This document shows positions 33,264 through 49,511 of a DNA stretch of 49,836 bases, in pieces (position 1 is the stretch's first letter; each line of letters opens with the position of its first letter). The translations under genes were made by a program, and so were the position numbers. The notes under the pieces were generated by a model. It was not told the origin of the DNA. It was given only the letters and a program-made list of their open reading frames with translations, and did not search any database. The DNA comes from Bodo saltans (taxonomy: Eukaryota; Euglenozoa; Kinetoplastea; Eubodonida; Bodonidae), in contig CYKH01001902.1 of assembly GCA_001460835.1 (NCBI GenBank), forward strand, positions 6,363 to 56,198, written 5' to 3'.

Positions 33264-34772
33264 ATGGTCTCGGTAACGTTGTTTGCTGCTGCGCTCGTGT
33301 GCCTTCTTGGCGTCTCCGTGCAAGCAGTCGAGATGTCGATGCATCTTGTTTCGAAGGTGTCGCCTGAATTTCTACACGCTGAGTTGATGGCTCGCTCGAC
33401 GCCAGGCTCCAGTCGCTTCCGTCAGCACATGTCTCAGGCAGAGCTGAAGCGCCACACGGAGGCTAGTGACGCATGCACGACAGCAGTGTTGCATTGGCTG
33501 GACACGCACGGTGCAACCGATGTTCGAGTAGGCTCGATGGGTGACCACGTGTTCTTTTCTATTGCGCAGAGTGACGTCGCATTCAGCGCACCTTCGGCAC
33601 CTGCGCCCAGATTCGGACGCCAATCTCTTCCAGTCCCCCATGATTTGGCTGATTGTGTTCGTTACGTTTTCCGAGCCACTTCTGGTACACCTCAAATTCC
33701 AAAGAAGCGAAACAACGTGAAGGGCAACTTTCCAGGAATGAACCAAGACCCGCTGACGATTGCTGCTCGCTACAATGTATCCCATGACCCCATCCCGGTG
33801 ATTGCCAACTTCTCACAAGGCGTCGCAGAGTTCGAAGGAGAACAATTCTACCAATCGAACATCGACGCGTTCAACACTCGCTATGGTTTAGCAAACAACA
33901 CCATTGAAGTGTCCGGTCCCAACAAAGGAGGGTACTTCGGCGAGGGGAACTTGGATCTCGAATACATTCAATCCATCGCCGCCTCCGCTACGACGTGGTG
34001 GATCGCGGAAAAGGACTTTGACTTTACGAAATGGACCGAGAATGTACTGTCCATTCACCCAATGCCGCTTGTGCTATCCATCTCATGGGGCTCGGGGGAG
34101 AGTGGATTTGACAACGTGACAATGGAATCCGAATCGGAGGAGTTCCGCAAGTTAGGGCTGCTTGGTGCCACCATTTTCTCTGCCAGTGGGGATCAAGGTA
34201 CCGGTACCACCGGTTTTTTCTCGTGCGGCACGTTTGATCCTACGTGGCCGGCAACTAGTCCATACGTCACTGCAGTGGGAGGGACGTACGCGAATTCCCA
34301 AACATCGGAGGAAGTGTCTTGGAGCGGCAGTGGTGGCGGCTTCTCTACTGTCTTCGCGGCGCCGTCATACCAGCAGAGCGCCATTCACAACTACACCTCA
34401 ACGACAGCCCTTCCACCTGCGGAGTATTTCACTGCTGGTGGTCGAGGCGTTCCTGACGTCGCCGCCTTGTCCAACAACTTTGAGGTCTATTCATACGGTT
34501 GGGGTACAGAGACGGGAACTTCAGCGGCAACGCCAACATTCGCGGCCATTGTCACACGCATCAACGCTCAGCGCCTCTCCCAACAGAAGCCATCTCTTGG
34601 GTTTATCAACCCGACTTTGTATTCCGTCGGGCACATCGGCTTTGATGTTGTGTCCGGCAACAATCAAGTCTCCGGCTGCCCGGCAGGATTTAACGCCACA
34701 GTTGGATGGGATGCAATCTCTGGCCTGGGAACACCCGTGTTTGGAGTCCTTGATGCTGCACTGAGCGGATAG
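33264..34772 (+). CDS. TPP1: Tripeptidyl peptidase I-like serine-carboxyl protease (S53, sedolisin)
   Basis: This 502-residue preproprotein has a signal peptide (about 1-21) and a pro-domain to about residue 150 with YVFRATSGTPQIPKK near the processing site. The mature S53 catalytic domain follows. The catalytic triad is visible: Glu227 and Asp231 in GEGNLDLEYI, and Ser420 in GTETGTSAATP. The oxyanion Asp310 is in FSASGDQGTG. The C-terminal VGWDAISGLGTP holds the calcium site. The family removes tripeptides from protein N-termini in acidic lysosomes. Its length is close to the 560 or so of the animal enzyme, slightly shorter in the pro-region. Several N-x-T sites fit lysosomal sorting. The start is fixed by the AG at 33249-33250, just downstream of another ATG. 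Confidence 0.93.
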   Translation: MVSVTLFAAALVCLLGVSVQAVEMSMHLVSKVSPEFLHAELMARSTPGSSRFRQHMSQAELKRHTEASDACTTAVLHWLDTHGATDVRVGSMGDHVFFSIAQSDVAFSAPSAPAPRFGRQSLPVPHDLADCVRYVFRATSGTPQIPKKRNNVKGNFPGMNQDPLTIAARYNVSHDPIPVIANFSQGVAEFEGEQFYQSNIDAFNTRYGLANNTIEVSGPNKGGYFGEGNLDLEYIQSIAASATTWWIAEKDFDFTKWTENVLSIHPMPLVLSISWGSGESGFDNVTMESESEEFRKLGLLGATIFSASGDQGTGTTGFFSCGTFDPTWPATSPYVTAVGGTYANSQTSEEVSWSGSGGGFSTVFAAPSYQQSAIHNYTSTTALPPAEYFTAGGRGVPDVAALSNNFEVYSYGWGTETGTSAATPTFAAIVTRINAQRLSQQKPSLGFINPTLYSVGHIGFDVVSGNNQVSGCPAGFNATVGWDAISGLGTPVFGVLDAALSG

Positions 34773-44140: not shown

Positions 44141-47100
44141 ATGCGCGACGCAATCGTCCACTTCTTTGCGGTGACAGCCGCAGTGGTGAGCATCAGCTCT
44201 GATCTCATCCTTTGGTGGATGGCTTCGCGAATTTGGAAGCAACGTCTGCTGCCAACTTCTCATTACACTGAAGTTGGTTTGCGATTTGTGGTAGCGTTCA
44301 CGATGATTGCCTACGCCGCGCACACTCAACAACAAGCGATGATCATCGCATATATTTCAGCGGCTCTTGCATCTGCACTCTTGTGGCTCTCTCACTGCCA
44401 TGGGCTCGTGCAGAACAAAGCCATTGGTGAAACGCAACGTCAATTGATTGCGTTCGCCTTCTCCATCCTCCTTGCGATGGGTATTGTCATTCTCTTTTTG
44501 ACGTCGACGAGCGTCGGGTGCATTGTGGTGGCCGCGGGATTCGCCGGGCTGAACCTATTCAGTGCCGCGATGAGGTCCGTTGGGCCTCAAGCACGCTTGC
44601 AGAGCCTTGACGGAGATGAAGTCATTCATGGCGGCCGTTTGATTGCTGCGGCGTTGTGGCTGCTCTACGGTTGCGTTGAGGGTGATATGTACGTTGCCTT
44701 GGTTCACACCATCATATTGGTGACGTCCTCAGTCGTTCTATTTGCACGCATTGCGAATCTCACCCTACCTCCCAAATCTACTTCCAGTCCTTCACACATG
44801 TGGGGTGCTGAGCCGCTGTACAACAAGAGCCGTGAAGACGATGCATCGCTTTGGGACTTGTTGTCTTTTGCGTGGGTAAAAAGCTACGCAACTGCCGCTG
44901 CAGATGAAACTCTGACATCGGCGACACTACCGCCACCGCTTCTGGGGTGCCGGACCTGGGATCTTGGGAGGAAACTTGAAGCGCAAATGAAACAAGAGCT
45001 TGACATCTACCACCTCTGGGATTCGCGCGCTCTTGCAGGAGACGAAGTCAGTGCTAAGTGGGACACCAGCAGCCGTGGGAACATGCGCTGGGTCGGTTGT
45101 ATTTCTCGCTCCCCCAACCCAACTCAAATGATGGTGGGCATTGAATGGACCATCAAGCCAACAACGCATGCTGGACTATTCGCACCTGAGTTCCACAACG
45201 GAACGTTTGAAGGAGAATTTCTTTTCGCCGAAGAGAACAAAGGGAGCTCGCACAACTCATCGTGCATTCCCGCTGATGAGGTGGTATTGCTCTCCTCTGC
45301 AGATGAGTCAGCTCCCCGTCCCCAGTATCCTTCCGTGGTGCGCGCTCTTTTTACTGCCACGTGGTCTCAAATCTGGGTTCAAGCTCCATTCCGAATGATA
45401 GCCGATATCTGCATGCTGAGCTCGCCCGTTGTTCTTGAAGCTTTTGTGAAGTTTCTGAAGTCAGATGACGCCTCTGTCGTCAATGGCGTCATGCTGGCTG
45501 TTCTTATTTTTGTCATTGGAGTGATTCAAAGCTCACTTCTGCATCGTTACTACCACCTCAGCATTCGGTGCGGAATCGCGCAACGCAATGCTGTCCTTGG
45601 GGTCCTTTTCACTAAATGCTTTAGCATTTCCCCAAAGGACCTCGCGCATCCCGACATGGGGCCTGGCCGAGTGGTCAACATGGTCAGCAGCGACGCTGAG
45701 AGATTCAACGACTTTCAGCAAATGCTTCTTTACTTTTGGAGTTACCCATTTCAGGTCGTTTGCGGAATTGCTCTGCTCTATCGCCTCGTGGGTTGGTGCG
45801 CAGTGGGCAGCATCGTTGCACTCTCCGTCTCCATTCCCCTTCAGAAAAAGGTCGCACAACTTCAGCACACGTATCGCCTCGAACTCGTCAAGACCTCTGA
45901 CCTGCGCGTCAAGTTAACGAATGAACTTTTTGGTGGTATTCGTGTTGTGAAGTTCATGGGGTGGGAGCTCAATTTCCTTGAGCGCCTTGAGCAGCGTCGC
46001 TCACAAGAGCTCGTTTTCTTGAAAAAGGCTCAGTACTGCAGAATTCTTGCGGCTCTTGTCACCGCTGCCACACCAACCATGCTTGTCGCAGTGGTGTTCA
46101 TTCTTTACTACTTGAGTGGCAACACACTCACTCCAGAAGTTGTATTTCCTACCATCTCTGTGCTGAATATTCTCCGCATTCCATTCATTATGATTCCCAA
46201 TCTGTTCACCGCGCTAATTCAATTCTCTGTCGCGGCAACCAGAGTCACGAAGTTCTTGATGAGTGACGATCAATCCGACCTTGCAATCACGAACATCGAC
46301 GAATACGTGGTTGATGCACCCTCTGCTAAAGACGCGTCCATTGTCTTCGAAAATGCAACCCTTTGCGCGTACCTCCCAACTAAGTTACCTGCAGTTGAAC
46401 GAATCCTACCACGAGAGAAAACCCTTCGAAATGTGCTGCTGCCCTGCGTGCCTTCGAAGGCGAAGTCTTTCACATCGACAGGAAGTTACTTTGTGATGGA
46501 ACTCAGGCCATTACTAAAGAGCATCTCACTCCGCTTCCCGAAAGGAAAGCTCACAGTGATTCTTGGACCTACAGGCTCTGGAAAGTCGACGTTGCTTGAA
46601 GCTGTGTTAGGGCAACTGTACTTGTCCGAAGGTAAAATTGCGACGGCCGACTCAATCGGTTTTGTCCCGCAGCAGCCTTGGATCATGAACGCAACTGTGA
46701 AAGAGAACATCGAATTCTTTTCTCCTGCGGATGAAAAGCGCCTCGCAACGGCCCTTCGGACTTGCCAGCTAGACACAGACTTGCACATGCTCCCTGGCGG
46801 ACTTGACACTGAAATTGGTGAGCGTGGTGTCAATTTGAGCGGCGGACAACGAGCCCGTGTGAGTATGGCACGAGCAGTGTACGCCAGACGTGATGTATAC
46901 CTCCTCGACGATCCCCTTTCAGCACTGGATGCGCACGTTGGTGCCGCACTTCTGAATGACTGTATTCTCGACACTCTCGCATACTCCACAAGAGTCCTTG
47001 CCACTCATCACGCACATGTGCTCCCCAAAGCTGATTACATCATTGAGCTGAACCTCGATGGATCGATCAAATTCTCTGGCACATACCCTGAGTATTCAGG

Positions 47101-49511
47101 CACTCACCCCAACGACGACAGCAATGCTGCATCTCCAACCGGGCGCTCACCAACAACCCAGATTCCCTCCTCTCCCAAAAAAGAATCTCAAACAGGTGCA
47201 AAGCTCACCTCGAAAGAAGAAAAGGCATCTGGGAGTGTCCCGCTGGCAACGTACATCGCGTACTTCAACGCTTGTGGCGGACTGCTTCGCATCTTGCTAG
47301 TTGTCCTCGTATTTCTTGCGACAGAGTTCCTGATTGTCTCCAACACGATATGGCTGTCGCTTTGGTCTGTGCAAACCATGTCATTATCTCAGACGACATA
47401 CCTGCTTGTGTATCTTCTTGTCATCACCATTGGCATCATATCTGCTCCGCTGCGGTATCGTGTCGCGTACGACGCAATGCGCAAAGGCTCGTTCCAACTC
47501 CACGCAGCTCTCCTTCGCTCGGTAATCCGAGCACCCATGTCATTCTTCGACACGACACCGCTAGGGAGAATCTTGAATCGATTCGTTCAAGATATCGACC
47601 AGGCCGACAATGGACTTCAACTCAGCATGGTCAGCATGTTGCAAATGCTATTTTCAGCATTCTCAACCACGTTGATCATGCTCGTCTCTCAACCGGGAGT
47701 CATCCTAGTGATCCTTCCGTGCTTCTATGTCTATTACCGTCTCCTCGTTTTTTATAATGCAGCCAATCGAGAGGCGCGTCGAATTGGGAACGTTGTCAAG
47801 TCACCCGTGTTCTCGCTGCTGACAGAAGTCTTGAATGGAGTTAAGACAATCTGTGCTTTTAAGAAAGGAGAAGTCATCATGCTGGAAGCTGAGAAGAGGC
47901 TCGACGTGACATATTCTGCAGCGTATCTGCAGAACCTTCTCAATCGATGGCTTCGACGCAATGCGCAAAGGCTCGTTCCAACTCCACGCAGCTCTCCTTC
48001 GCTCGGTAATCCGAGCACCCATGTCATTCTTCGACACGACACCGCTAGGGAGAATCTTGAATCGATTCGTTCAAGATATCGACCAGGCCGACAATGGACT
48101 TCAACTCAGCATGGTCAGCATGTTGCAAATGCTATTTTCAGCATTCTCAACCACGTTGATCATGCTCGTCTCTCAACCGGGAGTCATCCTAGTGATCCTT
48201 CCGTGCTTCTATGTCTATTACCGTCTCCTCGTTTTTTATAATGCAGCCAATCGAGAGGCGCGTCGAATTGGGAACGTTGTCAAGTCACCCGTGTTCTCGC
48301 TGCTGACAGAAGTCTTGAATGGAGTTAAGACAATCTGTGCTTTTAAGAAAGGAGAAGTCATCATGCTGGAAGCTGAGAAGAGGCTCGACGTGACATATTC
48401 TGCAGCGTATCTGCAGAACCTTCTCAATCGATGGCTTGGCCTTCGTATTGAACTCCTTGGAACTGCAATTATCGGAACAGTTGCTCTTGGTACTGCGCTT
48501 AGCAAGCTTTTCAGCTTCGGAACGTCGAACGTTGCAGTTCTGTCACTTGGGCTCACAATGTCAACAACGATCACGACAATGCTGAACTGGATGGTACGTC
48601 AAGTGTCTGCAGTTGAATCGGATATGAACAGCATTGAGCGTATTCTCTACTACAGCGATTCCATCGAGCAAGAAAACCTTGAGTTAGTACCGTGTCAACA
48701 AACGAAAGCTGCGTTGAAAGACACTTCTATTGTTTTCAAAGACGTTGACATGAAGTATCGCGCAGATCTTCCGTTAGTCCTACAACGACTGTCGTTCAAC
48801 GTCAATTGCAACGAAAAAGTTGGTGTTGTGGGCCGGACTGGCAGTGGCAAATCAAGTCTTCTGATGACATTTTTACGGATCGTCGAAATTTGTGGAGGGT
48901 CGATTACCATTGGTGGCGTCGCTGCTTCATCAATGTCTCTCGCTCAGCTCCGTGGTCTGTTTTCAATGATTCCCCAAGATCCAATCCTGTTCGACGGAAC
49001 GATAAGGTCGAACTTGGATCCGTTTGGGCAGCACGGCGATGCAGATGTCGTAGAAGCTTTGGCACTTGTGGGCATGCAAGAGAAAGTTTTCGAAGATCCA
49101 CTTGGAATTCAACGTGTTGTTCTTGATGGAGGCTCAAATTTCAGCGTTGGACAACGCCAGCTGCTTTGCATGGCACGAGCGATTCTGAAGAAAGGATGCG
49201 AATTCATCCTAATGGACGAAGCAACAGCAAACATCGACCCGGACATGGATGCTCGAATCCAATCAGCTGTGAAAACTGCATTTGCTACCAAAACGGTGGT
49301 CACCATCGCACATCGAATTCAAACAATTGCATCTTATGACAAGATCATTGTCATGGACCGTGGCGAAGCCGTCGAAATTGGCCCTCCGCAAACGCTTTTC
49401 TTGAACCCCACCTCAAGCTTCCGCGCCCTCGTTGATGCGCAAGAAGGAACCACCAAAGAAGAAATCCTTGGAGTGTTGGACCCAACCCGCAACCGATCAC
49501 CTAAACAATAG
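44141..49511 (+). CDS. ABCC/MRP-type ABC transporter with CAP-Gly-like insert; frame broken by a 484-bp duplication
   Basis: A full-size ABC transporter. Residues 1-225 form a TMD0 of about five or six TMs, then an L0 linker with ASLWDLLSFAWVKSY. A CAP-Gly-like segment lies at about 312-383, TMD1 follows, and then NBD1: Walker A GPTGSGKST at 809, LSGGQ at 899 and Asp-Asp at 923-924, the non-catalytic ABCC form. TMD2 comes next, then NBD2 (Walker A GRTGSGKSS, signature FSVGQRQ, catalytic LMDEATANID). The first frame runs from 44141 into the second copy of a perfect tandem duplication (47470-47953, 47954-48437) and stops at 48241. The correct frame resumes within the second copy to 49511. Removing one copy gives a single frame of 1628 residues, the normal ABCC size. 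The family exports glutathione, thiol or lipid conjugates. Confidence 0.9.
45077..45290 (+). other. CAP-Gly-like segment inside the ABCC transporter
   Basis: Residues about 312-383 read GNMRWVGCISRS, then MVGIEW, then HNGTFEGEFLF, then SSCIPADEVVLL. The order G-x-x-R-W-V-G, V-G-I-E-W, H/N-G-T-x-x-G-x-x-x-F and a closing P-x-x-E-V follows the CAP-Gly consensus. The lysine of the usual GKNDG motif is replaced. Two tetrapeptide-scale deviations and a short loop keep the confidence moderate. Confidence 0.55.
47470..47953 (+). repeat. 484-bp tandem duplication, first copy
   Basis: Identical over its whole length to 47954-48437. It encodes the middle of TMD2 of the ABCC transporter. The first copy is read in the frame of the upstream gene. 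Confidence 0.95.
47954..48437 (+). repeat. 484-bp tandem duplication, second copy
   Basis: No mismatch with the first copy. The period of 484 is not divisible by three, so the upstream frame reads this copy out of frame and terminates at 48241. The correct frame of this copy continues into NBD2. Confidence 0.95.

Follow-up and report, generated by a model that had tools for sequence, protein, structure and literature searches.

CAP-Gly domains, which have a five-stranded beta fold, are classic readers of tubulin tails, and the lasso is regarded as a control site of ABCC transporters; in one of these, MRP1, a low-complexity linker lies ahead of the first TMD1 helix. To our knowledge, there is no prior description of a CAP-Gly domain inside an ABC transporter. 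An earlier note on this DNA had stated that no such transporter was known, and this holds within the open literature that we searched, partly by title: no description of a fusion between CAP-Gly and an ABC transporter (or an ABCC protein) was found there and, among the matches listed for CAP-Gly in the Trypanosoma literature, none concerns a transporter judging by its title. For TBC-B and for CLIP-170, the ligand's EEY/F tail sits in a basic groove by the GKNDG loop, and the groove of known CAP-Gly domains is described as primarily basic; replacement of the Lys or the Asn of this motif by Ala harms binding, whereas replacement of the Asn by His has no effect on peptide binding (PMC3806363, from the available part of the article). 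The same part of that article reports that T. brucei TBC-B carries the motif GKGDG and gives no heat change with EDVEEY. A like role of GKNDG is given in the available parts of PMC9062740 and PMC13406575.

The locus described here brings these two families together. It probably encodes a divergent CAP-Gly domain that serves docking in the cytosol by way of an altered groove, acquired by one kinetoplastid ABCC lineage and kept in three genes. The window, that is, the whole stretch of 49,836 nucleotides of Bodo saltans DNA that was analysed, is part of contig C751 in an assembly of 29.3 Mb and 934 contigs. On its forward strand, where all the features discussed below lie, an ORF at 44141-48241 encodes 1366 residues, remains open across the CAP-Gly-like segment and matches both ABC_membrane and ABC_tran of Pfam. 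Judged by these two families and by its best similarity to ABCC proteins, the gene encodes an ABCC-type transporter. Comparison of the paralogue C279 with PDB sequences gave ABCC3 and MRP1 as the closest solved structures.

As in the ABCC subfamily (MRP1/ABCC3, YCF1), the order is TMD0-L0-TMD1-NBD1. TMD0 (residues 1-210, 44141-44770) shows up as six hydrophobic peaks in a hydropathy scan of the ORF; it is missing from a second paralogue, C630, whose protein begins near L0. Residues 211-299 (44771-45037) form a lasso-like linker, which we take to be L0 from general ABCC anatomy, and of these, residues 211-296 can be aligned to the start of the C630 protein. The CAP-Gly-like domain follows at residues 300-384 (45038-45292), as delimited by Pfam on the isolated stretch, by its C630 equivalent and by aligning it with six CAP-Gly domains found elsewhere in the genome. 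In the ABC core, TMD1 (residues 396-730, 45326-46330, with approximate ends) is placed by ABC_membrane and by the alignment of C279 residues 391-712 to ABCC3 residues 290-611, and NBD1 (residues 792-926, 46514-46918) by the Pfam ABC_tran match. In contrast to the ABCC subfamily, the window protein has an extra domain before the first TMD1 helix, replacing the low-complexity linker that another ABCC-like gene of this genome, C520, has at the corresponding place, preceding PSLLRAL. The earlier note had described an extra segment of about 70 residues ahead of the ABC core. Its position in the linker between L0 and TMD1 is borne out by the C279-ABCC3 alignment, which begins at C279 residue 391, directly past the segment, but the length comes to about 85 residues.

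The sequence motifs on which the CAP-Gly proposal had been based are all present in the open ORF. RWVG (45086-45097) corresponds to the R-x-x-G strand of CAP-Gly, VGIEW (45134-45148) to the x-G-V-E strand, and FEGEFLF (45206-45226), just after HNG, to V-x-G-x-x-Y-F. The Gly of each of the first two and the final Phe of the third are kept in 9/9 aligned sequences. The place of the tubulin-tail motif GKNDG is taken by EFHNG (45188-45202), in which Phe replaces Lys, His replaces Asn and the last Gly is retained. R-x-x-G, G-x-E, the Gly that ends GKNDG, and x-G-x-x-[FL]-F occur in the same order as in CAP-Gly domains of PF01302 (TBC-B, CLIP-170, p150Glued). The ABCC segments differ from those domains in having a degenerate GKNDG, a net acidic character and a longer interval (EWT..PTT) from the G-x-E strand to the motif, and in being located within a polytopic membrane protein.

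A search of the genome with a 190-residue stretch of the window protein found three places: the window itself, C279 (93%) and C630 (36%; query residues 2-138, E 1.1e-16). The reverse search with the C630 stretch returned the identical three, and all three ABCC genes have the segment at an equivalent protein position. C279 and C630 are open, with 1629 and 1620 residues, respectively, from the first Met, C279 along its whole length. Since two open paralogues have the segment, we reject the idea that it is an anomaly confined to one broken gene. C279 is more likely a paralogue than the other allele of the window copy, whose upstream neighbour gene was found at a single place in the genome. The segment is not a feature of every ABCC gene of this genome either: CAP_GLY was found in 0/4 other ABCC-like N-terminal stretches scanned (C520, C653, C483 and C452), a set that left out C652 and further ABC genes. 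Collections of genome contigs and of viral contigs, both poor in protists, yielded 33 and 59 pattern matches, respectively, with 0 confirmed relatives.

How well does the segment match CAP-Gly at the level of profiles? The Pfam CAP_GLY profile (PF01302) has a length of 65 and a curated cut-off of 26.5 bits, set for the whole protein. The isolated window segment of 103 residues scores 20.0 bits (E 6.4e-4, profile positions 2-56 of 65), below this cut-off, and 17.8 bits (E 0.0033) within the 190-residue stretch. The C279 segment is similar, with 19.6 bits (E 8.7e-4) in 104 residues and 15.3 bits (E 0.02) in 445 residues. CAP_GLY is not among the matches at E<=10 in the Pfam scan of the whole window ORF, and for the whole C279 protein it is absent among the matches listed (25 of 33 families). 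The C630 segment reaches 29.2 bits (E 8.5e-7) in a 153-residue piece and 27.1 bits in the N-terminal 258-residue piece, the latter with no second family; both scores are above the cut-off. The near-whole C630 protein, at 23.3 bits (E 6.3e-5), is below it. In each of the three isolated segments, CAP_GLY is the sole Pfam family at E<=1. Taken alone, the window copy is therefore a marginal CAP_GLY match, and it is the three genes as a family, C630 in particular, that carry the case. On that footing, the CAP-Gly homology proposed in the earlier note is supported: CAP_GLY is the best match, a C630 piece passes the cut-off and the segment recurs in three ABCC genes.

The genome has six CAP_GLY matches above the cut-off (L001-L006), among them a Ubl-CAP-Gly protein (TBC-B-like), a kinase-CAP-Gly protein and a CAP-Gly-CRAL-TRIO protein; L006, a partial match, gives only 22.1 bits, under the cut-off, when scanned as a 651-residue piece. 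Window, C279 and C630 are absent from this genome-wide search, even at E<=10. A MAFFT alignment of the three segments with the six domains has four columns (G28, G42, G63 and F71) invariant in 9/9 sequences. As read from the alignment, the positions equivalent to Trp185 and Phe216 of T. brucei TBC-B are Met/Met/Phe and Cys/Cys/Phe in the three segments, so that the core is retained only in part. The Arg-Glu pair that forms the R172-E189 salt bridge in T. brucei TBC-B (PMC3806363, available part) is, by the same reading, retained in 3/3 segments. A profile-profile comparison of the three with the six gave a probability of 74.5 and E 2.7e-5 over 47 columns. The six-domain profile gave C630 17.0 bits, with the best of its 2000 shuffles at 10.5 bits, the window segment 10.1 bits (best of 2000 shuffles, 9.9) and C279 9.4 bits (best, 10.5), so that C279 does not exceed all of its 2000. 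When the same profile was run over a background of 2147 reading frames, some repeated through overlapping loci, the C630 frames (10.7 to 9.0 bits) ranked directly after the six, and the whole window frame scored 6.0 bits, under three unrelated frames (7.6, 6.8 and 6.3 bits). In the opposite direction, with the three-segment profile, the six domains score no higher than 6.9 bits and as low as -1.3 bits, values without significance among the 2147 frames.

These weaker scores are where another interpretation might find room, namely, that the segment is some other small beta barrel, or an unrelated insert whose glycine/aromatic pattern arose by chance. The window and C279 segments do not reach the Pfam cut-off at any of the lengths scanned and are barely distinguishable from shuffles with the six-domain profile, and a second, weaker family, UPF1_1B_dom, appears at E 0.026 in the 190-residue window stretch and at E 0.23 in C279. 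When PDB sequences were searched with the window segment, the C630 segment or the profile built from all three, no CAP-Gly chain came up, only weak matches to unrelated proteins. Such an origin is nonetheless improbable in view of CAP_GLY being the top match in 3/3 segments and of the C630 piece, which lies above the curated cut-off and exceeds all 2000 of its own shuffles.

The highest score of the six for the three-segment profile, though weak (the 6.9 bits above), belongs to L004, in which a kinetoplastid CAP-Gly is likewise fused to a membrane-lipid module, CRAL-TRIO/Sec14. L004 differs from the ABCC proteins in being a soluble protein of the lipid-transfer type and in having a motif, DRNDG, nearer to the canonical one. 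Its Leishmania counterpart is LdBPK_360640.1 (PMC10341546, available part). Together with the combination of a protein kinase and CAP-Gly in L003, it represents the other CAP-Gly fusions seen here.

We then come to the positions that contact the ligand. At the GKNDG position, the window and C279 have EFHNG and C630 has TLSDG, so that none of the three carries the motif. The Lys is lost in 3/3 segments (Phe, Phe and Leu); the third position has the tolerated His in the window and C279, and C630 has neither Asn nor His. The six other domains read GKGDG (L001), GKNNG (L002), GSNDG (L003), DRNDG (L004), GDNEG (L005) and GNCNG (L006), with the Lys retained in 2/6 (L001 and L002) and the Asn in 4/6. 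The tubulin-tail motif is generally loose in this lineage, as the TBC-B-like L001, with the same GKGDG as T. brucei TBC-B, and L005, with GDNEG, illustrate. The net charge is -3 in 3/3 segments, compared with 0 to +3 in 5/6 of the other CAP-Gly domains (L006 uncounted). An EEY ligand is present in the genome: 2/4 tubulin loci, which we take to be alpha-tubulin, end in VEEY. A search of the genome for the EB1 family had no matches, but its control gave none either, which makes this negative uninformative.

The earlier note had suggested that the domain could tether the transporter to the microtubule corset, and the lost Lys and the acidic charge weaken this proposal. A classical CAP-Gly would bind the EEY tail of alpha-tubulin, or a partner with an EEY/F tail, and so fasten the transporter to cortical microtubules. 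The CAP-Gly profile similarity and the encoded VEEY tails speak for such a tether, and a His such as that of the window and C279 is reported to leave peptide binding unchanged (PMC3806363, available part). However, the motif Lys, whose change to Ala is deleterious according to the same source, has become Phe, Phe and Leu, C630 also lacks the Asn or His, and a net charge of -3 is at odds both with the five other domains and with a groove that is primarily basic where it is known. We therefore regard the tether as possible but unlikely, and as less likely than docking through a changed groove.

Between the window and C630 proteins, the identity of the segment of 36.5% (31/85) compares with 36.0% (119/331) for TMD1, 32.9% (25/76) for L0 (residues 211-296) and 46.2% (92/199) for NBD1. 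The segment is thus conserved at the level of TMD1, and one would expect a free linker to lag behind the core. Within the ABCC set, the conserved stretches are SRG..RWVG, RS..P and EWT..PTT, which may form a different surface. The window and C279 are 95.5% identical over residues 297-384, with dN/dS 0.22; for the whole stretch upstream of the duplication described below, dN/dS is 0.17. Over the segment, dS is unusually low (0.09 vs 0.31; one-sided Fisher p 8e-4), and a 128-nt tract within it (window 45122-45249) is identical to the C279 copy (L040). This suggests recent gene conversion between the two copies at the segment, and the pair therefore tells little about selection there.

Another reading is a structural spacer derived from CAP-Gly, a barrel that would pack on the transporter's own lasso, transmembrane domains or NBDs, have no outside ligand and stiffen or gate the transporter. 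The segment does adjoin the lasso, several core positions are kept and the ligand positions lost, conservation equals that of TMD1, and the segment is retained in C630, which lacks TMD0. Yet the conserved RS..P and EWT..PTT are just as easily explained as a ligand surface. We consider a spacer unlikely, too.

Docking through a changed groove would then involve the following. One kinetoplastid ABCC lineage would have acquired a genuine but divergent CAP-Gly domain in its transporter, at a cytosolic position that follows the L0/lasso and precedes the first transmembrane domain, and the three genes found would have retained it. The segment is predicted to fold as a small CAP-Gly beta barrel and, facing the cytosol, to serve the transporter as a docking module; its groove, having diverged from reading EEY/F, would bind a short peptide or a partner, and docking would place or regulate the pump. 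Because C630 keeps the domain without TMD0, the domain is tied to the lasso/TMD1 part of the protein rather than to TMD0. As to where the pump might be placed, the ancestral trypanosomatid apparently lost intracellular pumps and ABC transporters suggested to reside in the vacuolar membrane (PMC4728078, available part). Since those lost transporters are suggested to be vacuolar, a cell-surface location of this pump should not be assumed.

More tentatively, kinetoplastid ABCC pumps might have a built-in module for reading the cytoskeleton or docking peptides, a retooled CAP-Gly by the lasso through which a cytosolic ligand places or gates the transporter; this is conceivable, but we would not yet count on it. 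We know of no ABC transporter controlled by ligand-driven placing or gating through a CAP-Gly module. If the fold is confirmed, it would represent a new domain architecture for both the CAP-Gly and the ABC transporter families, and would provide either a link, open to test, between a membrane pump and the cytoskeleton or a new element of regulation in the lasso. The loss of the Lys with much of the core kept would make it a natural case of CAP-Gly roles beyond tubulin.

The window copy of the gene is itself disrupted. An exact 484-bp tandem duplication (47470-47953 and 47954-48437, together 47470-48437) shifts its frame and breaks the ORF; the remainder of the gene reads in an ORF at 47961-49511, and an intact full-length frame was not found for this copy. 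The duplication may be an assembly error; if not, it is a very young change. It lies downstream of the CAP-Gly-like segment and does not overlap it.

The kinetoplastid origin proposed for this DNA is supported by TTTCTGTACTWTATTG, the kinetoplastid spliced-leader end: it occurs at 55 places in the assembly, 54 forward and 1 reverse, vs 0 for the reversed control. In 18/55 places it stands at positions 1-4 of the contig (for example, L052 1-16 and L054 3-18). In L049 and L053 (1501-1516), it directly follows a run of N, the L053 copy being just before an ATG. The assembly seems in part to consist of trans-spliced transcripts or to have been scaffolded with them. Elsewhere in the window, the ORF at 33264-34772 has a pro-kumamolisin activation domain (Pfam E 1.9e-10).
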